NCBI GenBank assembly: GCA_021798795.1
Contig: JAJZBR010000010.1
Span: 1 to 41,342, forward strand
DNA length: 41,342 nt
Origin: Pseudomonadota bacterium
Lineage (GTDB): Bacteria; Pseudomonadota; Gammaproteobacteria; JAKAQQ01
Reading direction: 5' to 3'
Shown one piece after another: positions 2,783 through 15,445 of the stretch; position 1 is the stretch's first letter; the number at the start of each line of letters is the position of its first letter. Both the position numbers and the translations under genes were made by a program. The notes under the pieces were generated by a model that saw only the letters and a list, made by a program, of their open reading frames with translations, did no database searches and was not told the DNA's origin.

Positions 2783-4120
2783 GTGACCGAAAATACCGAT
2801 ACGCCCCGAAAACCTTGGCGCGCCGAAGACTTTCCCCAGGCCGATCTTACCGACCAGATCGCCGTATTGGTAGCAGGCGCCAATGCCTTGGTTCGCGAGG
2901 GACGCCTGGAAGACGCCGAGGCCGTCTACCGGCGAATCCTCAAGACGGCACCTCACAATCTCCAGGCCATCACTTTCGTCGCGCTGCGCGCTTTCGATGC
3001 GGGCCGCTACGAGGAAAGCATCGTGCACCTCAAGGAAGCTCTCGTCCTGGATCCGAACCGGGACAGTCTTCACCGAAATCTGGCCCTGGTCCGACTGGCA
3101 CAAGGGCTAAACGGCAAGGCGCTTCAGGCGATCGACCGGGCCATTGAGCTCAATCCGGACTCGGCCTTAAACCACCTCCACCGAGGCGTCATCCTGGAAA
3201 GCCTGGATAGGAAGAGCGAAGCCCTCGCAAGTTACGGGCGCGCGCTCGCGCGGGATCCGGTCCTGAGACACTTGCCATCTGGCCTCCCACCCAAGATCCG
3301 CGCGCTGGCCCACCGCGCCATCAGCCACCTGGCTCCGATTCTTCTCGCCCGGATCGACGCTGCCCAGCGCGAAGTCGAGACCGCCTCAGGCGCTCCACTC
3401 CCCGCCCGAGCAAGAGATTTCCTCGAGATCTTCAAGGGACTCAAGCCACGGGTTTACGAGGATCCCAACCAACGCCCCGAGTTCTTGTTCTACCCGGGGC
3501 TCAATCCACGACCCTGGTTCGAACGCGGCGAATTCAGCTGGATCCGTGCACTCGAGTCAGCCACCCCGGCAATCCGTGCCGAGTTCGAAGCACTCGATGC
3601 CGGACTCGAAGAGCCTCACCTGCCAGCTCAATCCGCCTGCCCCAAGCACTGGCAACATCTGGCCGGATCCCTTGCTTGGGGTAGTTTTCCTCTGTACCGA
3701 TCCGGTGTCCCGGTACCCAAAATCCTCCACGTCTGTCCCGGAACCTTTACCGCACTCAAGTGCCTGCCCCTCGCGCAGGGACGCGGTCATTCCCCCGAAG
3801 TATTTTTCTCGACTCTGACACCGGGAACCCACCTGCCCGCTCACCATGGCCAATCGAATGCCTGGGTCATGATCCATCTCGCTCTCATCGTGCCAGACGA
3901 ATCTGCCATCCAGGTCGGCGGGGAAACCCGGCACTGGCGGAAAGGTCGTACGCTCATCTTCGATGACAGCTTCAAACATGTGGCCCGGAACGAGGGCTCG
4001 GCCGCTCTCACGGTTTTGACCGCGAATATCTGGAATCCCGCTCTCAGCGCGATTGAACGTGAACTCATCGAACGGGTTATCGATGCGCATAGCCGGTTTA
4101 GCGAGGAATATTTCACCTGA
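2783..4120 (+). CDS. TPR protein with aspartyl/asparaginyl beta-hydroxylase-like domain
   Basis: A 445-residue protein. Residues about 23-160 form tandem TPR helices (for example ALVREGRLEDAEAVYRRIL and ALQAIDRAIELNP). The C-terminal 200 residues match the AspH family, whose members are Fe(II)/2-oxoglutarate dioxygenases that hydroxylate Asp/Asn side chains. The two iron-binding histidines are His354 (PGTHLPAHHG) and His399 (FDDSFKH); AspH enzymes use two His without a carboxylate. No signal peptide is present, so it should act in the cytosol. I prefer GTG at 2783 because GAGGG lies four bases upstream; a TTG at 2687 would add 32 residues. It faces the TonB receptor gene and shares TPR architecture with the two sulfotransferases beyond it. 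The family is fairly sure; the substrate is unknown. Confidence 0.82.
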   Translation: MTENTDTPRKPWRAEDFPQADLTDQIAVLVAGANALVREGRLEDAEAVYRRILKTAPHNLQAITFVALRAFDAGRYEESIVHLKEALVLDPNRDSLHRNLALVRLAQGLNGKALQAIDRAIELNPDSALNHLHRGVILESLDRKSEALASYGRALARDPVLRHLPSGLPPKIRALAHRAISHLAPILLARIDAAQREVETASGAPLPARARDFLEIFKGLKPRVYEDPNQRPEFLFYPGLNPRPWFERGEFSWIRALESATPAIRAEFEALDAGLEEPHLPAQSACPKHWQHLAGSLAWGSFPLYRSGVPVPKILHVCPGTFTALKCLPLAQGRGHSPEVFFSTLTPGTHLPAHHGQSNAWVMIHLALIVPDESAIQVGGETRHWRKGRTLIFDDSFKHVARNEGSAALTVLTANIWNPALSAIERELIERVIDAHSRFSEEYFT

Positions 4121-4186
4121 TTTACAGGATGGATACCCCGGATGCTTCAATCCAAGTGGCAGGACTCGCCTCCCCACGCGTGAAAG

Positions 4187-4220
4187 AAAACCCGTGGCCC
4201 CTTTCGGAACCACGGGTTTT
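4187..4220. terminator. Bidirectional intrinsic terminator between convergent genes
   Basis: A perfect 11-pair stem (AAAACCCGTGG against CCACGGGTTTT) with a 12-base loop. It has T runs in both directions, so it can end the hydroxylase gene (plus) and the TonB receptor gene (minus). Confidence 0.85.
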
Positions 4221-4238
4221 ATGCTTTTACCTTATTTT

Positions 4239-7200
4239 TCAGAACCGCACGCCGATCCGTCCATAGATGAAGCGGCCTGGGACCAGGTAGCCCAAGAAAG
4301 GTTGGTAGCTATTCTTGAAGGCCGTCATCGAGATCGGTGGATTCTTGTCGAACAGGTTCCGCACCCCGATGGTGAAGTCCGTGTTCCAGGCAGCCAGATC
4401 ATAAGTCACCTGGACGTTGTTGTACACGGTCGTCCCGAGCCGGTTCAGCCCCTGAAAGGGGCCTGACGGTTTGGAACTGCCGGGACCGGACAGCACGTCA
4501 CTGCACCAGCCGGTTCCGACCTCGGGGAGGCTGATGAAGGGCGAGACGGCCGAGTTCTGGCACACCTCGTACATCGGGCCGATGATATCGACAGTCCAGT
4601 TGGCCGACCAGGGGCCATAATCCCAGTCGAGGTAGATATTGTATTTGTGTTTCGGAATAAGCGAAGTCACTGAACCCGCGACCTCCTTCGTGAACTCGGT
4701 TGGGACACCTTGGGGGTTCACGCCCAAAAACGAAATGACAAAGTTCTGGGTAAACGTGAGATCAGCAAGGATCTTGAAATCGCCGATCGGCGTCGAGGGA
4801 AAACGATAGTCAAGATTGACGTCCCAGCCCTCGGTTTTGTCGGCACCCACATTCTGGTTGAGCGACAGGATGTCCGTGATCTCACCATTGGTCTTGTAGG
4901 TCGCGTTCGAACGCTGGATCAGGTTGCAATCGAGGTTCACGGCGCTGTAGCAGAAATCCAGAATGTTTTGCGGACCGATGCCGCCCGGGGTGATGGCGTT
5001 GACTACCTCCACCTTGTAGTAGTCGGCCGAAATATCGAATCCGGGAAGATAGGTCGGACTGTAGACAAACCCGATCGTACGCGAAATTGCCCGCTCCGGC
5101 GTCAGATTGGGGTTGCCGCCCACCGTTACCGGGAGCTGAGTAACGGTCTGAACCGCGTGGGCCGGGCAGTTCGGCAGAGCCGGATCCGGAACGCACGGAT
5201 CGACCAGGGGATCGAAACTCTGGCCCTGTCCTGCGAAAAAGTCGCTGATCGTTGGAATGCGGAACCCCTGTGACCAGCTCCCCCGGAAGAGCAGGGACCG
5301 GATCGGGGCATACTTGAATGCAATACGCCCCGAAGTGTTGGATGCGCTACGGTTGACAGATGTAGTGGAGTTGATGGCTCCCGACCAGTTTGCCTGCGTC
5401 CAGCGGTTCGCGATGTCAAAAGAGAGCCGGTGCACCATGAATATGTCGCGCACGAGAGGAACGTCAAACTCGATAAACTCGCCGCTCTGGGCTTCGCGCC
5501 CATTCGTCGGTTCGGCAATGTTGGTTGTGGCGTCGCCCACGGCAACGAGCGGATCGGGAGTGAAGAACCCGTTGTCCTCAAGGTATTCGTAGCCCACCGC
5601 GACACCCAAGGGACCAGCCGGGAGATTGACGAGCGTCCCGGTGAGATTGCCGGAGTAGTCGCGCTGCGTGACACCATCCTTGTTGACGCCTACATAGGAA
5701 ATGTAGTTGGCTTGAGCCGGGGTGATGGTGCCCTGTCCGGTTCCCAGGTTGTATCCGCCGAAAAGATCGAGCGGAACGCAACCGGGAGTGTCCTGGCATG
5801 TTGCGAGTGGCCCCAAAGCGAGTGCCATGTGGGTCGTATCCTCCAATCCGTATTCCGTCCCCACATTGGTGCGATCGGAATAGGAGTAGTGGGTATTCCA
5901 GTACCAATCGTGTCCGATGGCCCGGAAATAGCCCTTGAGTCCGCTTTCGAAAAAGAAGGTCTTGACATCCTGCCCGAAAATACGCGGGCCGGTCTCGATC
6001 ATCCGTCGAGTCATAAACAGCATGGCATCGCTCTGGCTGTTGCATTGAGCCGTACCATAGAGTGCGCACCAATTCGCATAGCCTGTGCTTCCCGGGATAT
6101 AGGGAACGAGGTCAACCCCGAATGGGTTGTAGGGATTCGTGGCCGAAACACCCAGAAAGGTTCCGTTGGCTGAACCATAGCCGATCGCTCCGAATGCACC
6201 CATAACGAGTGGAGTCGCGGCCAGTTGCGTTTGTGAGGTGCGGTCATTGTAGAGGACGGTGGTGTCGAACTCGAGGTGTGAGTTGAACTTGTAATGGCCC
6301 TGGCTGTAGGCATACCACTGTTCCTGGGGCGCCTGGAGATAATAGTAGGGGGCCCAGTTCCAGTTGTCTGCAGCACTGAAGTTGGTCGGATTGGCAAAGG
6401 GTCCGTTAAGCGGCCCAGCGAGATTGCAGCCCAGGCTCGTGTTGCCAGGGGAGGCTCCCGACACGCTTGAAGGCAGGCAGTTTCGGCCGGGGAGCGTATT
6501 CGGACCGGCCTGACCCTGGATGAGGAACTCACCACCCGCAGTGAACGGGTTGCCAGCCAGATCTCCAGTGCCGATCACGGGTACCTGACTGATCGTGGCA
6601 TCCGAGGCCATGACCGGGCTCTGCTCACTGTAGCCCACACTCAAAAGCACTCCGGCCCGCTTGTTACTCGCACCGATCGTGAAGTCATACTCCTGAGACT
6701 TGCCGGTCCAATGGGTTGCACCCTGGATCGGCGAGAAGAGACCCAAGGTGGGGTTCGCAGCCAGGGAGCCATTGGACACCTCACGGATTCCCATGTAAGC
6801 ATGGGCTTCCGCACCGTTGAAATCCTGCTCCGTGATGATGTCGATCACGCCCGCGATGGCATCCGATCCGTAAATCGGCGAAGCGCCGTCGAGTAGGATT
6901 TCGATCCGGGAGATGATTGCGGATGGGATTGTGTTCAGGTCCACGGAACCGCCTAGCGTCGGAATCCAGCGGTGACCATTGACCAGAACCAGAACCCTCG
7001 CCGAGCCCAAATTGTGCAGGTCGATGAAGGTATCGCCGTCATTACCGTTGTCGGTCTGTGTATTGAGAGCCGCCCCCGACTGCGAGATCGACTGGAGAAT
7101 GTTTCCAATCGTGACCTCGCCGGTCAGGTTCAACTGCTGTCGGGTCAGCACCACGACCGGCTGCGCGGTCACCGTGCTGGTTCGCAGGATCCGCGAACCC

Positions 7201-7337
7201 ACGACCTCGACTTTGGCGAGTTTCGTGGAATTCGAACCGGGCTGCGCCAGCGCGGCAGGTGCGGCGACCACTGCGGCTGACGCGCTGGCTACGAGCGCCC
7301 CGCGTACCGCTTGCCACACAAGATTTCGCTGTTTCAT
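4239..7337 (-). CDS. TonB-dependent outer membrane receptor
   Basis: A 1032-residue receptor that would import a ligand across the outer membrane using TonB energy. Residues 1-32 form a signal peptide ending in APAALAQ. A TonB-box-like KVEVVGSRI follows, then a plug domain (about 50-170) with the motifs LVLVNGHRWIP, DLNTIP and ILLDGASPIYGSDAIAGVI. The rest is a beta-barrel ending in the aromatic GRIGVRF. The barrel has several closely spaced Cys pairs (for example CQDTPGC and CVPDPALPNC), probably disulfides in surface loops. The start ATG at 7337 has GGAGG nine bases upstream, and a promoter lies further up. The ligand cannot be read from the sequence. Its neighbours are a TPR-hydroxylase and two TPR-sulfotransferases rather than transport genes. 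Confidence 0.95.
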   Translation of the reverse strand: MKQRNLVWQAVRGALVASASAAVVAAPAALAQPGSNSTKLAKVEVVGSRILRTSTVTAQPVVVLTRQQLNLTGEVTIGNILQSISQSGAALNTQTDNGNDGDTFIDLHNLGSARVLVLVNGHRWIPTLGGSVDLNTIPSAIISRIEILLDGASPIYGSDAIAGVIDIITEQDFNGAEAHAYMGIREVSNGSLAANPTLGLFSPIQGATHWTGKSQEYDFTIGASNKRAGVLLSVGYSEQSPVMASDATISQVPVIGTGDLAGNPFTAGGEFLIQGQAGPNTLPGRNCLPSSVSGASPGNTSLGCNLAGPLNGPFANPTNFSAADNWNWAPYYYLQAPQEQWYAYSQGHYKFNSHLEFDTTVLYNDRTSQTQLAATPLVMGAFGAIGYGSANGTFLGVSATNPYNPFGVDLVPYIPGSTGYANWCALYGTAQCNSQSDAMLFMTRRMIETGPRIFGQDVKTFFFESGLKGYFRAIGHDWYWNTHYSYSDRTNVGTEYGLEDTTHMALALGPLATCQDTPGCVPLDLFGGYNLGTGQGTITPAQANYISYVGVNKDGVTQRDYSGNLTGTLVNLPAGPLGVAVGYEYLEDNGFFTPDPLVAVGDATTNIAEPTNGREAQSGEFIEFDVPLVRDIFMVHRLSFDIANRWTQANWSGAINSTTSVNRSASNTSGRIAFKYAPIRSLLFRGSWSQGFRIPTISDFFAGQGQSFDPLVDPCVPDPALPNCPAHAVQTVTQLPVTVGGNPNLTPERAISRTIGFVYSPTYLPGFDISADYYKVEVVNAITPGGIGPQNILDFCYSAVNLDCNLIQRSNATYKTNGEITDILSLNQNVGADKTEGWDVNLDYRFPSTPIGDFKILADLTFTQNFVISFLGVNPQGVPTEFTKEVAGSVTSLIPKHKYNIYLDWDYGPWSANWTVDIIGPMYEVCQNSAVSPFISLPEVGTGWCSDVLSGPGSSKPSGPFQGLNRLGTTVYNNVQVTYDLAAWNTDFTIGVRNLFDKNPPISMTAFKNSYQPFLGYLVPGRFIYGRIGVRF

Positions 7338-7407
7338 TATTGTGAGCCTCCACATGTGATTATTGAGGATCGTTGTATAAGCCTTGGATAAGTCAAGGTC
7401 AGTTGTG

Positions 7408-7435
7408 AACATACCACTTGCTGGTAGATAGTCAA
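7408..7435 (-). promoter_or_regulatory. Sigma70-type promoter for the TonB receptor gene
   Basis: On the minus strand TTGACT (7435-7430) and TATGTT (7413-7408) are separated by 16 bases. This gives a leader of roughly 65 bases to the receptor ATG. The DNA from 7440 to 7505 is markedly AT-rich and separates this gene from the divergent sulfotransferase gene. The match is by eye. Confidence 0.5.
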
Positions 7436-7605
7436 GCGTATGTCGAAAAACCCTGCAATTTAGTTGTAACTTTATAATATTATTATATTTAGTATAGTAA
7501 CCGCCTTTCAGATTCTCCATGGAATACCCATCTGGCGTCGCATGGATACAACAGGCGAGCCTGTTACAATCCCCTCTTCACGATCCAGGATCCAGGAATC
7601 GTCTC

Positions 7606-9153
7606 ATGCCCCAAGCCCCACCCCATCCCCCGGCCTCCGAGTGGACCGGCCGGGAAAATCCCTTACCCCGGGTGCTTTCGGCTGCAGAACAGTATGCCTT
7701 GGGCAATGAACTTAGACGACTTGGAGATCATCAATCCGCCGAAGAAGCGCTACGGGCGGCACTGGAGCAGGATCCAGCACTTTTCGATGCCCGGCTGAGC
7801 CTCGCCTTCCTCTATCGGGATCTTGGCCGCATCGGAGAGGCGGGAGCCCTCTTCGATCCTTGGCTCGAGTCCAACCCCGACGATGCCATCCTTCTTGGGC
7901 GAGTAGCCCAGCTGCTCGATGCAATCGGAGACCCTGGCCGGGCACTTGCCTGCTATGAGCAGGCGACTCGTCTGGACGTGGACCTGGCCCCCGCCTGGTT
8001 CGAGCGCGGGCGTCTACTCTTACAGTCGGGATCCTTCGAAGAGGCAGCGCAAAGTCTCGCCCGCGCCCTCGCCATCAACCCCGAGCAGGGGGCAGCCTAC
8101 CTGCTTCTCGCACAGACCCGCCGGTTCACGACCGGCGATCCGCTGATCCTTTTCTTCGAGAACCAGCTCACCCAAGGCAAACACCCCGCATCGACCCAGG
8201 CGTGCCTGCACTTTGCCTTAGGCAAAATCCGTGACGATCTCGGTCAGCCGGAGCGGGCGTTCGCCGAGATCGAGGCCGCCAATGCCATACGCCGCAAAGA
8301 GGTCCGTTTCGACCGGGCCCCTTGCGCAGAACGCCTGCAACGTCTGCTCGCCGTTTCGCCCGGATTCTGGATCCCGCCCGAACCCCACCCAGCTCAAATC
8401 AGCCCGGAACCGCTTTTCATCGTGGGTCTGCCCCGGGCAGGGACCACACTCCTCGAGCGGCTCATGGCGACCCACCCGGCTATCATGACCGCGGGCGAAA
8501 CCGACACCTTGTCGCACCTGCTTGAAGCACTCCGGCTGGCAGCGCGCTGGCAGGAACCCTGGGATCCGGGCCGAACGTTCAGTTCGAGCACACTCGCAGA
8601 AGAATGTTCCGATGCGGCAGCCTACTACCGAACCGAGCTCACCTGTGGATCCAGACCTGGCGTGCGCTACCTCATCGACAAGAATCCGCTTAACTTTTGG
8701 CACTTGGGACCCATCCGGCGACTCTTCCCCCACGCTCGGATTCTTGCCGTGGAACGTGATCCGCGCGATGTCCTGCTCTCTCTCTATTTTCAAAACTTCG
8801 ACCGACCGGAACTTGGCTTCTCCTACGCAATCGACGATATCCGGTTCTACCTCGAGATGCACCAGATCCTGATGACACATTGGCAGCGTTGCACAGGATC
8901 CCTCCTCCGAGTGATACGTTACGAAACCCTGGTTCAGGAGCCCACGACGGTTGTGGGCGAGCTCCTGGATTGGCTCGGTCTTGATCCGTCCCTCCGAGAC
9001 ACCGTGGATCGGGATCAGGCGGTCATTCGAACCGCGAGCGCCTGGCAGGCGCGCCAGCCCGTTTATCTGCGATCGGTCGGCCGCTGGAAGCCATATGCCA
9101 GGGTTCTCATCGAGCGCTACCCTGAGCTGGCCCAACTGGGATTTGGCACGTGA
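7606..9153 (+). CDS. TPR-repeat sulfotransferase (first of two)
   Basis: A 515-residue protein with N-terminal TPR repeats (about residues 25-190) and a C-terminal PAPS-dependent sulfotransferase domain, which moves a sulfate group to a hydroxyl or similar acceptor. The 5'-phosphosulfate loop is FIVGLPRAGTTLLERLM (about 270-285), and the 3'-phosphate region is AVERDPRDVLLSLYF (about 380). No signal peptide is seen, so it should act in the cytosol, where PAPS is made. I chose ATG 7606, preceded by AGGA; an in-frame ATG at 7519 would add 29 unremarkable residues. It overlaps the second sulfotransferase as GTGA and is divergent from the TonB receptor. The family is clear; the acceptor is unknown. 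Confidence 0.88.
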   Translation: MPQAPPHPPASEWTGRENPLPRVLSAAEQYALGNELRRLGDHQSAEEALRAALEQDPALFDARLSLAFLYRDLGRIGEAGALFDPWLESNPDDAILLGRVAQLLDAIGDPGRALACYEQATRLDVDLAPAWFERGRLLLQSGSFEEAAQSLARALAINPEQGAAYLLLAQTRRFTTGDPLILFFENQLTQGKHPASTQACLHFALGKIRDDLGQPERAFAEIEAANAIRRKEVRFDRAPCAERLQRLLAVSPGFWIPPEPHPAQISPEPLFIVGLPRAGTTLLERLMATHPAIMTAGETDTLSHLLEALRLAARWQEPWDPGRTFSSSTLAEECSDAAAYYRTELTCGSRPGVRYLIDKNPLNFWHLGPIRRLFPHARILAVERDPRDVLLSLYFQNFDRPELGFSYAIDDIRFYLEMHQILMTHWQRCTGSLLRVIRYETLVQEPTTVVGELLDWLGLDPSLRDTVDRDQAVIRTASAWQARQPVYLRSVGRWKPYARVLIERYPELAQLGFGT

Positions 9154-11009
9154 ACCGAACGGAAACCGAATCCGCCCTGCGAAGATCATGGAACCGAAAC
9201 CTCGGTGAGGCGGTGTCATTCATGCAGCGCGGGCAATACGCCGATGCCGAGCGGATCTTCACCCATCTTCTCGCCCAGCCGGGCACTCCGCCACCGGTGC
9301 TGCATTTCGCGGGTCTCAATGCAATCGAACTCGGCAGGAATGAGGAAGGCTTAGGCCTCTTGCGTCGCTCGATCGAACTCGCGCCAACCGATCCCGCTTT
9401 CCAGGCCAACCTCGCCACTGCGCTCATCCGGCTTAAGCGATTGGACGAAGCGGAACCGCTCCTTCGCGCCCTGCGTCTGCGTGATCCCGGGAATCCCAAG
9501 CCTGCCTTCGTTCTGGCCAATCTGCTCCATCTCAGTGCACGCGAGGGTGAGGCGGTTGCCCACTGGAAGGAGTGTCTCGCACATGCTCCCGAGTGGGCAC
9601 AGGCATGGCTCGGACTGGGCGAAAGCCTGAGCGAACTCGGTGATCGGGCGGGAGCCGATCAGGCCTATGCGAGAGGACAGATGCTCCTGCCCGAAGATCC
9701 CCTGATCCGTGTGGCCCGCGCGGATCTTGTCGTACAAGACGAACAGGATGATGGAGGATCCGAAACCGCCCGCGAGCTCTACGAGGAGGCGCTCAGGTTG
9801 AAACCCCATTTCGCCCCGGCCGAAGCAGGCCTCGCAAGCCTTGAGGGTCAGGCCGGTGCATTCGATGCGGCGCTCGGGAGGCTCCGCACGCTACTTGAAC
9901 GCGATCCGCGCGCCTACTTTGCCTGCTGGCTCATGGCCCGCTTCAAGACCTACCCAGCCCACGATCCGGACCTTTCTCTCATCGAACGGACGGTTGCCGA
10001 AGCTGGGCGGGAGCCTGCTTCCGAGACGGCGCATCAGGCCTTTTTCGGGTGGGGAAAGGTGCTCGAAGACCTCGGAGAATACGATCGGGCGTGGGCGGCC
10101 TTCAGCCGCGGTCACGAGCTCAAACCGGTTAACCGCGCCTATAACGAATCCACTCAGCGCCAGTACATGCGGCTCCTTCTCAAATCGACGGATCAATCCT
10201 TTATTGAGAAAAATCGCGTGAAGGAACCCGGACCCATCCGACCGGTCTACATCGTGGGCATGCCCCGCTCCGGAACGACACTCGTCGAGCAGATGCTTTC
10301 GGTACATTCCGATATCACGGCTTGCGGAGAGATGGTGGCTCTCCAGAGCGCCCTCTGTCGCGGACTTGAAATCCTCGACATCGGCCTATTGCCCTTCGCC
10401 TTTCATCCCCTGAGTCCGGCCGCCTGGAGGCGTCTCAAGGGCGAAGTCGACTACCTCTACGCCGAACGGAGCCGGGGTCGGCAGATTTTGACCGACAAGA
10501 TGCCAAGCAACTTCATGAACCTGGGATTTCTGACCGCACTCTACCCGAATGCCCGCGTGATCCACATCCAGCGAGAGGCACGCGATACCTGCGTATCCTG
10601 TTATACAACACTTTTCCGCAGTAGCCAGCGGTTCAGCTCTGATCTCACCCATCTCGGCCATTACTTCCGGATGTATGAGGCCGTCATGGAATACTGGCGG
10701 ACCATTCTCCCTGCTACGACACTACTCGAGATTCGCTACGAAACGCTTGTCGCAAACCCGCGCGCGACTCTGGAATCGATTCTCGACTTTATCGGGCTGC
10801 CCTGGCAGGAGGCCTGCCTCCACCCCGAGCGCTCCGGCCGGCATATCCGGACAGCGAGCCTCTTCCAGGCCCGCCAGCCGATTGGCACAAACTCCATTGG
10901 CCGCTCGCAACACTATGCCCGCCACCTCGTGCCTCTTGATGCCGCACTTGCCATTGCGCAACCTCTTGAGGATCCCATGCCGGATCTTTCGGCTTCGATC
11001 TCCGGGTGA
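9150..11009 (+). CDS. TPR-repeat sulfotransferase (second of two)
   Basis: A 619-residue protein with a longer TPR region (about residues 20-330) and a C-terminal sulfotransferase domain. The phosphosulfate loop is YIVGMPRSGTTLVEQML (about 366-382) and the 3'-phosphate region is IQREARDTCVSCYT (about 472). The C-terminal FQARQPIGTNSIGRS is shared in pattern with the first copy (WQARQPVYLRSVGRW). The GTG start overlaps the previous stop (GTGA), so the two are translationally coupled and probably work together. The two are clearly diverged rather than a recent tandem copy, which argues for different acceptors or steps. No signal peptide is visible. Confidence 0.9.
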   Translation: MNRTETESALRRSWNRNLGEAVSFMQRGQYADAERIFTHLLAQPGTPPPVLHFAGLNAIELGRNEEGLGLLRRSIELAPTDPAFQANLATALIRLKRLDEAEPLLRALRLRDPGNPKPAFVLANLLHLSAREGEAVAHWKECLAHAPEWAQAWLGLGESLSELGDRAGADQAYARGQMLLPEDPLIRVARADLVVQDEQDDGGSETARELYEEALRLKPHFAPAEAGLASLEGQAGAFDAALGRLRTLLERDPRAYFACWLMARFKTYPAHDPDLSLIERTVAEAGREPASETAHQAFFGWGKVLEDLGEYDRAWAAFSRGHELKPVNRAYNESTQRQYMRLLLKSTDQSFIEKNRVKEPGPIRPVYIVGMPRSGTTLVEQMLSVHSDITACGEMVALQSALCRGLEILDIGLLPFAFHPLSPAAWRRLKGEVDYLYAERSRGRQILTDKMPSNFMNLGFLTALYPNARVIHIQREARDTCVSCYTTLFRSSQRFSSDLTHLGHYFRMYEAVMEYWRTILPATTLLEIRYETLVANPRATLESILDFIGLPWQEACLHPERSGRHIRTASLFQARQPIGTNSIGRSQHYARHLVPLDAALAIAQPLEDPMPDLSASISG

Positions 11010-11087: not shown

Positions 11088-12752
11088 TTATCCCGAAGGG
11101 CAAACTGGAGCGACTGAAACCCTCAAGGGCGCAGGCGCATCCCCATCCAGCTCAGCCTGGGTCGGTACCGTCTCCTCAATCGGTGCGTGTGGAAGGAAAT
11201 GCGGACGGATCCGTTGCTTCGTAGCCTGCTCAAAATCATAAGCAATCTCAATGAGGGTGGGCTCGGCCCATTTGCCTGCAAAAAATGTCATGCCAACCGG
11301 CAGACCATGCACGTTGCCGGCGGGTACCGTGACGGATGGATAGCCAGCCACGGCTGCCGGGCTGTCGCCACCGGCACATCCGTGATCCCCGTCGACGAGA
11401 TCGATGCTCCAGGCCGGGCAGGATGCCGGCGCGAGGAGTGCCGCAAGGTCGTTGGTTTTGAGTGCCCGATCGATCCCTTCAGGACCAGTCAGCAACTTGG
11501 CTTGGGCCAGAGCTTTTTTATAGGCCGGGCTGCTCAGCGTTCCCATACGGTTCGCCATAAGAAAAATATCCTGACCGAACCAGGGCATCTCCTGACGCCG
11601 ATGCCTGCGGTCAAAAGCGATCAGCTGGGTCAGGGTCTTGACCTTGAGCCCGTGACGGTGCGCCAGATAGGTATTGAGATCGTTCTTGAACTCGTACAAG
11701 AGGCTCGTAAACTCAGCCTTGCCATACGCATGGAGATGGGGTAGCCGGACGGGTATGACGCGAGCGCCCTGGCTGCGCAGGGCGGCGACGCTATAGTCCA
11801 GTATCCGTCGGATTTGGGGATTGGGTCCGACAAGTCCGCAGACGACCCCAATCCGTTTGCCTTTGAGCTGCCCTGGCTTGAGATACCGGGTGTAGTCGGT
11901 TCTGTGCCGATTGGCGTTGCGGGTCCAGGGATCGCGTGGATCGGAACCCGCGATGACGGTCAGCAGGGCAGCTGCTCCGGCCACACTTCGCGCCATGGGC
12001 CCAGGATCATCCTGGCTTTCCGCAATGGGGACGATTCCAGAGCGGCTGACCAACCCGAGTGTTGGTTTGATATCCACAATACCGTTCATGGAAGCAGGAC
12101 AGGTCAGCGAACCGTCCGTTTCGGTACCGATGGCCAACGGAACCAACCCGGCGGAGACCGCGACGGCCGAACCCGAACTGGATCCGCAGGCACTGCGGGT
12201 CAACACATAAGGGTTGCGGGTCACTCCGCCCACAGCGCTCCACCCGCTCGTGGAGTGAGTGGACCTGAAGTTCGCCCACTCGCTGAGGTTGGCTTTCCCG
12301 AGAATGATCGCCCCGTGCTGCTTCAGCCGGGTAACAATCGTCGCATCGCGTGACGGGGGCGGGCCTTCCAGGGCCAACGATCCGGCCGTGGTCGGCATCG
12401 AGCGGGTATCAATATTGTCCTTGAGGAGTACCGGGATTCCGAAAAGGAGGCCGTGACCGTGACCCGAACGGATCGCCTGTTCCCGCTCACGGGCAATCCG
12501 GATGGCGTCCGGGTTGATGAGAATGACCGCATGGAGCTTGGGCCCCTGCCGGTTCAGAAGCTCAATCCGGTTGATCAACTCCCGAACCAGCTCAGGGTCG
12601 GTAATCTGTCCCGACTCGAGTTCCCGATGCAGGGTGGCAAGAGATTGGAAGTAGGGTGTCACAGGGCCCGTCAACGGCGGCAGGCGCGGGTAGGCCGAAA
12701 CGGCCGCCGTCACCCCGAAAAACATGAAACCGATGAAAATGGATGATTTCAT
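11088..12752 (-). CDS. Secreted amidase (amidase signature family)
   Basis: A 554-residue enzyme that hydrolyses amide bonds by a Ser-cisSer-Lys triad. The residues seen are Lys111 (VLLKDNID), Ser191 (ACGSSSGS) and Ser215 (GTETDGSLTCPAS), with the Gly/Ser-rich signature between them. Residues 1-20 form a signal peptide ending in VSA, so it acts in the periplasm or outside. That, with the TETDGS signature, places it nearer to exported peptide amidases than to GatA. GAGG lies six bases before the ATG. It converges on the sulfotransferase gene with a 78-base gap in which I see no clear terminator. It stands alone in its strand block. Natural substrate unknown. Confidence 0.9.
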   Translation of the reverse strand: MKSSIFIGFMFFGVTAAVSAYPRLPPLTGPVTPYFQSLATLHRELESGQITDPELVRELINRIELLNRQGPKLHAVILINPDAIRIAREREQAIRSGHGHGLLFGIPVLLKDNIDTRSMPTTAGSLALEGPPPSRDATIVTRLKQHGAIILGKANLSEWANFRSTHSTSGWSAVGGVTRNPYVLTRSACGSSSGSAVAVSAGLVPLAIGTETDGSLTCPASMNGIVDIKPTLGLVSRSGIVPIAESQDDPGPMARSVAGAAALLTVIAGSDPRDPWTRNANRHRTDYTRYLKPGQLKGKRIGVVCGLVGPNPQIRRILDYSVAALRSQGARVIPVRLPHLHAYGKAEFTSLLYEFKNDLNTYLAHRHGLKVKTLTQLIAFDRRHRRQEMPWFGQDIFLMANRMGTLSSPAYKKALAQAKLLTGPEGIDRALKTNDLAALLAPASCPAWSIDLVDGDHGCAGGDSPAAVAGYPSVTVPAGNVHGLPVGMTFFAGKWAEPTLIEIAYDFEQATKQRIRPHFLPHAPIEETVPTQAELDGDAPAPLRVSVAPVCPSG

Positions 12753-13055: not shown

Positions 13056-13283
13056 ATGCTTCATCGCCACCTCAACCATGAGCGCTTCACCCTCGCCGCT
13101 ATCGACGACGTGATCTCACGCGGTCGGTGGCAGGATTGGGCGGAACTACGGCGGGCGGCTTTGTCCGACCGCGCCCTGCTCGACAAAGTGGAGCGCGTGT
13201 GCCGCCCTTACGTCTCCGACCCCTATGCTCAACGCCATCACTTCTGGATGCACTATGCCGAAGAACACCGCACCGCTCCCTGA
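13056..13283 (+). CDS. Small protein upstream of AbiEii-like gene, possible antitoxin
   Basis: A 75-residue protein starting MLHRHLNHERF. It is predicted all-helical with no membrane segment. I do not recognise the family. The 3' end overlaps the AbiEii-like gene by 29 bases, the arrangement of two-gene toxin-antitoxin modules where the small gene comes first. It does not look like a typical AbiEi antitoxin, which is longer and has a winged helix. A GTG at 13044 could add four residues but lies within the third direct repeat. The antitoxin role is inferred from position only. Confidence 0.6.
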   Translation: MLHRHLNHERFTLAAIDDVISRGRWQDWAELRRAALSDRALLDKVERVCRPYVSDPYAQRHHFWMHYAEEHRTAP

Positions 13284-13980
13284 CTGGGAACTCGTCTTGT
13301 CTTCTGCCGCACGGCTCCAGCGCATCCTGCCAGATGCCGTGTTGGTTGGGGGAACCGCCTCGGCAATCCACGCCGAACACCGCTTCTCCCATGACGCCGA
13401 CCATGTGCTGACCGATCTGTGTCACCGCTTTGACGAAGTGCTGGCCGAGCTTGAATCGGTCGCTGGCTGGAAAACGGCCCGTGTGCAGCGCCCCGTGCAA
13501 ATCCTTGGCAGCCTCGACGGCATCGAAACCGGGGTTCGCCAGCTTGTTCGGGATGAACCATTGGAAACGGCTGTGGTGGACTACCATGGGGCGCGAATCA
13601 CCGTTCCGACCGAGCGTGAGATTTTGCGCATCAAGGGGGTGTTGATCCTCAAGCGCAACGCTACGCGGGATTACCTCGACTTCGTGGCTTTGGCCGATCA
13701 CATGGGCGATGAGAGCGTTGCCCATGCGCTGCAATCATTCGACCGGCTCTACCAGCAAGAGAGTGGTGAATCTCCGCTACAGCAGTTGCAAGTCCAGCTT
13801 GCCAACGCGCTGCCCTATGACTTGGAAGAAACTGAACTCAGCGAGTACAAGAACCTCGATCCTCGCTGGCATGACTGGCGGGGGGTTCAAGCGGCTTGTT
13901 CCCACCTCTCAGCCGTCATCTTCGACCGAGTGTGCAATATGGAAGAAGATCGTTCTGATGATTATGGGACGGATCCATGA
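13255..13980 (+). CDS. AbiEii/AbiGii-like nucleotidyltransferase (putative toxin)
   Basis: A 241-residue protein of the DNA polymerase beta-like nucleotidyltransferase fold. The signature is LVGGTASAIHAEHRFSHDADH, that is GG-T followed by HRxSxDxD with both metal-binding Asp present. A later KGVLILKRNATRDYLDF segment matches the Lys and (K/R)DYxD motif of AbiEii-type proteins. In known systems such enzymes are toxins that transfer nucleotides to RNA and are held in check by a partner. I chose MPKNTAPLPDW; an ATG at 13225 lies deeper in the upstream gene. An ISL3-type transposase follows in the same direction 67 bases later, so the pair may be a passenger of that element. Confidence 0.75.
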   Translation: MPKNTAPLPDWELVLSSAARLQRILPDAVLVGGTASAIHAEHRFSHDADHVLTDLCHRFDEVLAELESVAGWKTARVQRPVQILGSLDGIETGVRQLVRDEPLETAVVDYHGARITVPTEREILRIKGVLILKRNATRDYLDFVALADHMGDESVAHALQSFDRLYQQESGESPLQQLQVQLANALPYDLEETELSEYKNLDPRWHDWRGVQAACSHLSAVIFDRVCNMEEDRSDDYGTDP

Positions 13981-14047
13981 ATCCGGCTGGAAGGGTCTTA
14001 GTGGCGTAAGGCTGCTTCGTGGCACATCTGGCAAAGCGCGTCCTGAA

Positions 14048-15445
14048 ATGGCTGCCAACATCCTGAACCTCCCGCAGTACCGGGTGCTGCACGTGGGGGA
14101 AACCAACCACGACTACCACGTTACCGCCGAGCCGGTGGACGTGGCCTCAGTCTGCCCGCACTGCCAGTCCGACCGTCTGACCTCGTGGGGCACCCGCGAG
14201 CAGGTATTCAAAGACATGCCGATGCACGGCAAGCGTGTGGGCATCTACATCGACACCAAGCGGCTGCGCTGCCAGTCCTGTGGCAAGACTTTTTCGCAGA
14301 CGCTGCCTGTGCTTGCAGTGAACCGCATGATGACCGATCGGCTGGTGAAGTGGATCGGGCAACAGGCGTTGAAACGCACTTTCGTCTCTCTGGCCGATGA
14401 AACCGGCGTGGTCGAAGGGACGATCCGCAACATCTTCCGCGGCTACATCAACGAGCTTGAGCAGACCGTCCGCTTCGAGACGCCGAAGTGGATGGGTATA
14501 GACAAAATCCACATCATCAACAAGCCGCGCTGCGTCGTCTCTAACATTCAGAACAACACCATCGTGGACATGCTCCACAACCGTGACAAGGACACAGTTG
14601 AGAAATACCTGTGCAAGATGCCGAACCGGAACCAGGTACAGTACGTAGCGATGGATATGTGGGCGCCCTACCGCGATGCGGTAAGTGTGGTACTGCCCGA
14701 GGCGACCATCGTCATCGACAAGCTCCACGTCGTCAGAATGGCGAACGACGCGATGGAGAAGGCACGCAAAGACTTGCGAGGCGAACTGACGATCAAGCAG
14801 AAGCGCGGACTGATGCACGACCGATGCGTGCTCTTGAAGCGCGAGCGCGACCTGAACGATGAAGAGCGACTGAATCTCGACGGCTGGACGAAGAATTACC
14901 CAGCCTTGGGTGAGATGTACAGGCTCAAGGAGGACTTTTACGGCATCTATGAGGCCGCAACGCCAGAGGACGCCATGCGGCACTACGAGGCGTGGCATAG
15001 GGCCGTCTCGACCGATATCAGACCCTACTTCGCCGAGCTGATCCGCACCTTCACGAACTGGCAGCCGTTCATTCTCAACTACTTCGAGCACCCAGTGACG
15101 AATGCCTACACGGAGTCGCTGAACAGCCTGACTCGGATGATGAACCGGCTAGGCCGGGGCTACTCGTTCGAGGCATTGCGGGCCAAGGTGCTGTTCACCA
15201 AGGGCATTCACAGCCACAAACAGAAGCATCCAAGGTTCGAGCGAAAGCGCGAGCCGGAACCGGTCGCAGCGGGTTATGGCCTGCCGGATGATGCCATCGG
15301 CTACGGCTTGCCGGTGATAGAGAAAGAGCGTCCGATGCGTCCGCCCGAAGCCTACAACCCACACAATCATGAGAAGCTAGAGAAGAACTACGGCGTGGAC
15401 ATTTCAACACTCATCCGCATGATTGAGGCGGGAGAGGATGTCTAG
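14048..15445 (+). CDS. ISL3-family transposase
   Basis: A 465-residue transposase. The N-terminus has a zinc-ribbon (CPHCQSD near residue 37 and LRCQSCGKTF near 77), then a helix-turn-helix (LADETGVVEGTIRNIF). A DDE domain follows with Asp in WMGIDKIHI, Asp in YVAMDMWAPYRDAV and the Glu in a region containing NAYTESLNSLTRMMNRLGRGYSF. The enzyme appears full length for the family. The start MAANILNLPQYRV has no strong ribosome-binding site. I could not match the terminal inverted repeats: GGGTCT at 13993-13998 and AGACCC at 15537-15542 are a possible but weak pair. Confidence 0.9.
   Translation: MAANILNLPQYRVLHVGETNHDYHVTAEPVDVASVCPHCQSDRLTSWGTREQVFKDMPMHGKRVGIYIDTKRLRCQSCGKTFSQTLPVLAVNRMMTDRLVKWIGQQALKRTFVSLADETGVVEGTIRNIFRGYINELEQTVRFETPKWMGIDKIHIINKPRCVVSNIQNNTIVDMLHNRDKDTVEKYLCKMPNRNQVQYVAMDMWAPYRDAVSVVLPEATIVIDKLHVVRMANDAMEKARKDLRGELTIKQKRGLMHDRCVLLKRERDLNDEERLNLDGWTKNYPALGEMYRLKEDFYGIYEAATPEDAMRHYEAWHRAVSTDIRPYFAELIRTFTNWQPFILNYFEHPVTNAYTESLNSLTRMMNRLGRGYSFEALRAKVLFTKGIHSHKQKHPRFERKREPEPVAAGYGLPDDAIGYGLPVIEKERPMRPPEAYNPHNHEKLEKNYGVDISTLIRMIEAGEDV

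Follow-up and report, generated by a model that had tools for sequence, protein, structure and literature searches.

A recurrent cassette of TPR-hydroxylase and TPR-sulfotransferase genes around a TonB-dependent receptor suggests chemical decoration of the receptor or a partner protein

We analyzed a stretch of 41,342 nucleotides from a gammaproteobacterium (GenBank assembly GCA_021798795.1, contig JAJZBR010000010.1), hereafter the window, in which the gene for a hydroxylase with tetratricopeptide repeats (TPR-AspH), the gene for a TonB-dependent receptor (TBDR), and two genes for TPR-sulfotransferases (ST1 and ST2) are clustered at positions 2783-11009. The cassette to which these genes belong is a recurrent, widely conserved module, and its composition suggests that the receptor, or a partner protein, is chemically decorated in an undescribed way. 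Our search of openly licensed papers turned up no description of TPR-sulfotransferases next to TonB receptors. The genome is fragmented (1.76 Mb, 100 contigs, ~80% complete), and the window is its contig C77.

The initial annotation had raised the question of whether homologues of TPR-AspH and of the TPR-sulfotransferases co-occur with this type of receptor, and the answer is strongly positive. Among 274 gammaproteobacterial genomes, TPR-AspH is encoded in 10 and the window receptor type in 12, nine genomes having both (Fisher 1e-13); when one genome per family is considered, the corresponding numbers are 7, 7, and 6 (Fisher 1e-10). We then searched 84,980 genomes using an AspH profile derived from a five-sequence alignment and retained the 80 best loci with flanks of up to 10 kb. 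At the 49 TPR-AspH loci with sufficient flank, a TBDR and a sulfotransferase are both present in 24 cases and both absent in 24; the only locus with a TBDR alone is one where the contig stops, and no locus has a sulfotransferase alone when strong matches are counted, two exceptions appearing if very weak sulfotransferase matches are admitted. The presence of TBDR and that of sulfotransferase are thus almost completely tied (Fisher 4e-13), with the caveat that the family profiles were built from those same loci and that loci inside one clade are not independent. On the basis of the 274-genome and 49-locus statistics, chance adjacency was rejected.

Receptor linkage changes at least 9 times on the AspH tree. 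Linked lineages include Xanthomonas (L103), Pseudoxanthomonas (L091, L095), Silanimonas (L077), Chiayiivirga (L078), Colwellia (L093), uncultured gammaproteobacteria (L044-L054), and Sphingomonas (L079, L083-L092, L114, L123). The receptor subfamily (at least 42% identity) is usually flanked by TPR-sulfotransferases, and relatives at 37% identity or less mostly are not. The sets of enzymes swap between loci, the receptor remaining in place. Cassettes of other genomes additionally contain prolyl 4-hydroxylase (P4H)-like and other 2-oxoglutarate (2OG) oxygenases, a methyltransferase, a TPR protein resembling O-GlcNAc transferase (OGT), sulfotransferases of a family termed c3, and AspH-sulfotransferase fusions. 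In Pseudoxanthomonas (L091), e.g., the genes around the receptor encode a methyltransferase, a TPR-GT41 protein of the OGT family (L091:18146-20086), a TPR-sulfotransferase, and two 2OG oxygenases, one with TPRs and one small; the AspH gene is divergent to them. The fusions occur in both orders: clade B has AspH and sulfotransferase in one protein (L056:2898-4757 and L051:3407-5251), and a Colwellia protein (L093:8064-9473) has the Asp_Arg_Hydrox domain at its C-terminus and, according to motifs and profile score, a c61-type sulfotransferase-like N-terminus. These enzyme classes resemble eukaryotic protein modifiers. Two other families were observed at such loci: c41 (L040:11681-12574, L103:16680-17567), a protein of about 295 residues that probably has a signal peptide and matches no Pfam family, is encoded near AspH/receptor loci of Xanthomonas-type genomes, and c50 is a small SseB-like protein encoded between TPR-sulfotransferase genes (L017:5478-5966), which is kept across clade A and, as it appears, joined to a sulfotransferase in L054.

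Pfam searches bore out the gene content proposed for the window by the initial annotation. TPR-AspH (2783..4120, plus strand) consists of N-terminal TPRs and an aspartyl/asparaginyl beta-hydroxylase domain (Asp_Arg_Hydrox, PF05118; E 8e-34). The TBDR (4239..7337, minus strand) shows a signal peptide, a Plug domain, and a TonB_dep_Rec beta-barrel, as expected for a TonB-dependent receptor; its closest solved relatives are BtuB/Cir plug domains only. ST1 (7606..9153) and ST2 (9150..11009), both on the plus strand, each combine TPRs with a Sulfotransfer_3 domain (E 5e-35 and 7e-43, respectively), and the GTG start of ST2 indeed overlaps the TGA stop of ST1 as GTGA (9150-9153). Earlier start assignments were corrected, the likely starts now being GTG at 2783 for TPR-AspH (frame open from 2687), ATG at 7337 for the TBDR (frame open to 7520), and ATG at 7606 for ST1 (frame open from 7519). 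By eye, an N-terminal signal or membrane segment is present in the receptor and absent in all three TPR enzymes, in agreement with the earlier claim that the latter have no signal peptides.

The sulfotransferases are most similar to enzymes that act on proteins. In a profile search of the PDB, the seven best matches of the ST domains were all protein-tyrosine sulfotransferases (E 3e-30 to 2e-27), followed by CurM (1e-18) and then by small-molecule sulfotransferases. Arg, Glu, Lys, and Ser residues that align with TPST1 and TPST2 are invariant in the alignment of the sulfotransferases (A5), and we take them to mark the loops binding 3'-phosphoadenosine 5'-phosphosulfate (PAPS) and the catalytic Arg/Glu/Lys of TPST. 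The sulfotransferase motifs are intact in the window. The AlphaFold model of ST2 (pLDDT, predicted local distance difference test, of 89) was matched by Foldseek to OGT TPR superhelices and to a TPST2-like domain, with a fold match probability of 1.00. Protein-tyrosine sulfotransferases thus appear to be the closest relatives of ST1 and ST2, for which tyrosine sulfation is the putative activity. Animal TPST1 and TPST2 are the nearest solved structures of the catalytic domain by sequence and are also among the fold matches; unlike them, the window enzymes carry a long OGT-like TPR superhelix and are expected to be cytosolic. Family c3 (L053:8677-9735, L086:8808-9833, and 16 other proteins), which lacks any Pfam match, adjoins AspH and occurs with AspH and the receptor in Sphingomonas and clade B. 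Its AlphaFold model (pLDDT 89) has CurM and TPST2 as best Foldseek matches, and profile comparison links it to the TPR-sulfotransferases (E 3e-6); as modelled, c3 is a divergent PAPS sulfotransferase family.

The hydroxylase domain of the window AspH aligns with human ASPH (E 5e-52), i.e. the type that hydroxylates epidermal growth factor (EGF) domains. Both proteins have TPRs N-terminal to the 2OG oxygenase domain and the same two-histidine iron site, the ligands H679/H725 of ASPH being kept as His386/His431 (numbered from the frame opening at 2687); the equivalent of Ser668 is also kept in the comparison with 97 homologues. The TPR domain of human ASPH binds the protein substrate and is required for hydroxylation of EGF domains (PMC6817910). 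In contrast to human ASPH, the bacterial enzymes have neither endoplasmic reticulum targeting nor a membrane anchor, and no EGF-like substrate is known for them; the human enzyme hydroxylates Asp/Asn of EGF domains, whereas Asp/Asn hydroxylation by bacterial AspH is predicted.

The TPST-like sulfotransferase domains, the EGF-hydroxylase type of AspH, and the P4H- and OGT-like enzymes found elsewhere strengthen the earlier claim that these enzymes modify a protein. Tailoring could instead concern a small molecule, a lipid, or a glycan that the receptor imports or that is shown on the surface, in accord with the frequent action of PAPS sulfotransferases and 2OG oxygenases on small molecules and with a weak similarity of the AspH domain to the lipid hydroxylases OlsC and LpxO. 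We consider this very unlikely, given the nearest relatives of both enzyme types, the OGT-family protein of Pseudoxanthomonas, and the lack of biosynthetic or catabolic genes shared by the loci.

If a protein is modified, its gene could be located in the cassette or elsewhere. The initial annotation had reported no small precursor gene in the gaps, and a comparison of open reading frames (ORFs) among close relatives agrees with it. Conserved ORFs of 18-120 codons inside the clusters of the closest relatives were just antisense shadows of known genes, and the divergent intergenic/promoter region between the receptor and ST1 (7338..7605) contained no small ORF conserved in relatives. This comparison is informative in the clade with enough divergence, the Sphingomonas loci being too alike to inform. 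A tandem precursor of a ribosomally synthesized and post-translationally modified peptide (RiPP) was rejected on this basis. No dedicated peptide exporter was seen among the genes at the loci, and PF05114 (MbnB) is absent from the genome, which is about 80% complete. The analogy drawn earlier with RaxST of Xanthomonas therefore did not hold. RaxST is a PAPS sulfotransferase encoded alongside the RaxX precursor and the RaxAB exporter (PMC4216712, PMC6637879); the window shares with it a bacterial PAPS sulfotransferase proposed to work before export, but has a receptor and hydroxylases and neither precursor nor exporter, and a reading as a RaxST-type or RiPP cluster is not supported. The same applies to a methanobactin-type reading: some methanobactin operons combine a receptor (MbnT), a sulfotransferase (MbnS), and an oxidising enzyme at one locus (PMC3621798), but MbnA and MbnB are absent here and the window enzymes are TPR fusions. 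A broader version, in which a peptide or small protein encoded elsewhere is modified, secreted, and re-imported by the receptor in the role of a metallophore or signal, as sulfated methanobactin is via MbnT, would draw on this shared logic and on the weak resemblance of a 2OG oxygenase family of related loci (c26) to the RiPP enzyme YhhC. We regard it as somewhat unlikely: beyond the missing small ORF, exporter, and PF05114, no protease or multinuclear non-heme iron-dependent oxidative enzyme was noticed in the loci examined, and large TPR grips are better suited to a protein than to a short free peptide.

Since no conserved small precursor gene was found, the receptor is usually the only common non-enzyme product of the loci, and because the comparisons above yielded no small ORF, exporter, or PF05114 we favour its precursor as the substrate. 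In this proposal, the four window genes would represent a pared-down version of a cassette for protein modification linked to the receptor. Its enzymes, located in the cytosol and each made of a TPR superhelix for substrate grip and a modifying domain, would act on one protein substrate, most likely the co-encoded TonB receptor as an unfolded precursor ahead of Sec export. AspH and other 2OG oxygenases would hydroxylate side chains, and the PAPS sulfotransferases would sulfate tyrosines and possibly the new hydroxyls. The receptor surface would then bear negatively charged sulfated or hydroxylated residues, which could tune ligand binding or hide the receptor from phages and bacteriocins. We give modification of the receptor precursor in the cytosol before export slightly less than an even chance, and prefer it to a protein or peptide encoded elsewhere and to several envelope proteins as substrates; the cytosolic location, the identity of the substrate, the order of reactions, and the benefit are all presumed. 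Adhesins with cytosolic glycosyltransferases (HMW1A-HMW1C, AIDA-I-Aah) provide a parallel, in that a neighbouring enzyme modifies an outer-membrane or secreted protein in the cytosol, but there sugar is attached to adhesins, as opposed to the hydroxylation and sulfation of a TonB receptor proposed here.

Several points weigh against the receptor as substrate. To our knowledge, modification of an exported barrel precursor by a cytosolic enzyme has loose precedents, such as glycosylated adhesins, and none among TonB receptors. No receptor site was found that is kept in every linked receptor and missing from unlinked ones, and the chemistry of the cassette is predicted from homology. The best candidate among columns specific to linked receptors was an extra Cys-Cys loop (485-493), which we rejected as a marker of the target site since only the gammaproteobacterial clade has it and since it is shared with L124 and L125, which have no nearby enzymes; Cys loops such as CQDTPGC were rejected as a signature of linkage because unlinked receptors have them too. 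Moreover, AspH lacks a receptor at the 24 loci mentioned above, and receptor-free AspH subfamilies exist. The latter, together with TPR-sulfotransferases located away from this receptor type (L136, L137, L139-L143, and C58 of the same genome), would fit enzymes that modify several envelope or secreted proteins, the linkage reflecting shared regulation and not an enzyme-substrate pair. This appears unlikely, as receptor and sulfotransferase are tightly tied at AspH loci and it is the enzymes, not the receptor, that are exchanged.

A further difficulty concerns the window AspH itself. The equivalent of ASPH Arg735, which binds the 2OG C5-carboxylate, is Leu441 (codon 4007-4009), although this arginine is kept in 95 of 97 homologues and in the paralogue on contig C34; the equivalent of Arg686 is Trp393 (codon 3863-3865), with Arg or Lys there in 94 of the 97. 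In human ASPH, the R735Q substitution costs the enzyme a factor of more than 3000 in kcat/Km for 2OG, R735W shows no activity with this cosubstrate, and R735 variants accept hydrophobic 2-oxoacids instead (PMC12816917), so that a changed cosubstrate is possible for the window enzyme. Given the leucine, an active enzyme is not to be assumed: it may be inactive, its hydroxylation is probably poor or nil, and we consider it an AspH homologue of doubtful activity. Sulfation is expected to persist in the window copy, but hydroxylation would probably be weak or be provided by a paralogous locus on C34/C50.

On contig C34, a P4H-like Sel1-2OG oxygenase, a PF13759 2OG oxygenase, a TPR-AspH (55% identical to that of the window), and another PF13759-type 2OG oxygenase adjoin sucA-sucB-lpd; contig C50 encodes a receptor (66-68% identical) and three TPR-sulfotransferases. 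Because a genome of the same genus (G234) has on one contig sucA, 2OG, AspH, 2OG, P4H-Sel1, a small 2OG oxygenase, the receptor, and sulfotransferases, an order that is almost unchanged in the closest relative (L044), C34 and C50 most likely represent the halves of one second locus, fuller than that of the window. The proximity of the large cassette to the 2-oxoglutarate dehydrogenase genes sucA-sucB-lpd was observed in two clades (L019, L034, L044-L053); coincidence or co-regulation may account for 2OG oxygenases lying next to an enzyme that consumes 2OG. The window genes are farther from this second locus than from L046-L048, the nearest kin of all four (AspH 63-64%, receptor 72-75%, ST1 55-58%, ST2 62%), which indicates that they moved or were duplicated as a unit and that the other oxygenases were lost. 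The isolate names of relatives, uncultured proteobacterial assemblies, lead us to guess at mine-drainage sites. The window copy could also be a decaying duplicate without its own function, compatible with any role of the module elsewhere. Loss of the R735 and R686 equivalents, the missing partner oxygenases, and the flanking insertion sequence remnants (a DDE_3 transposase fragment just upstream of AspH at 2093-2491 and an ISL3 transposase downstream at 13709-15445) are consistent with decay, but four intact reading frames, intact sulfotransferase motifs, and a receptor still 74-75% identical to its nearest kin make it quite unlikely.

Among the other surrounding genes, a phage-type integrase (723-1938) lies at the 3' end of a tRNA-Lys gene. 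Its element should run away from the cassette and out of the window, the integrase being on the tRNA 3' side, and the window showed no further copy of the tRNA end; the tRNA-Lys element therefore does not explain the cassette, which was rejected as its cargo. An amidase with a likely signal peptide (11088-12752; NCBIfam PRK08137) is adjacent to the cassette and was rejected as a member of the system, as it was not found beside the related cassettes compared. An AbiEii-like nucleotidyl transferase is encoded at 13225-13980.

A bolder proposal, which we hold to be improbable, is that these loci are receptor-dedicated modification islands, in which 2OG oxygenases make hydroxyls (e.g. beta-hydroxy-Asp/Asn) and TPR-sulfotransferases sulfate them or nearby tyrosines; the AspH-sulfotransferase fusions are a physical hint of such a system. 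If true, outer-membrane proteins would undergo hydroxylate-then-sulfate modification by exchangeable enzymes (2OG oxygenases, sulfotransferases, OGT, methyltransferase) chosen per receptor. Protein sulfation and hydroxylation are usually regarded as chiefly eukaryotic; with a conserved set of ASPH-, TPST-, P4H-, and OGT-like enzymes that accompanies one receptor subfamily in alpha- and gammaproteobacteria, both modifications become directly testable in bacteria, in cultured Pseudoxanthomonas and Sphingomonas. They would bear on receptor specificity and on escape from phages or bacteriocins, and the enzymes could serve as soluble tools for the production of sulfated proteins.

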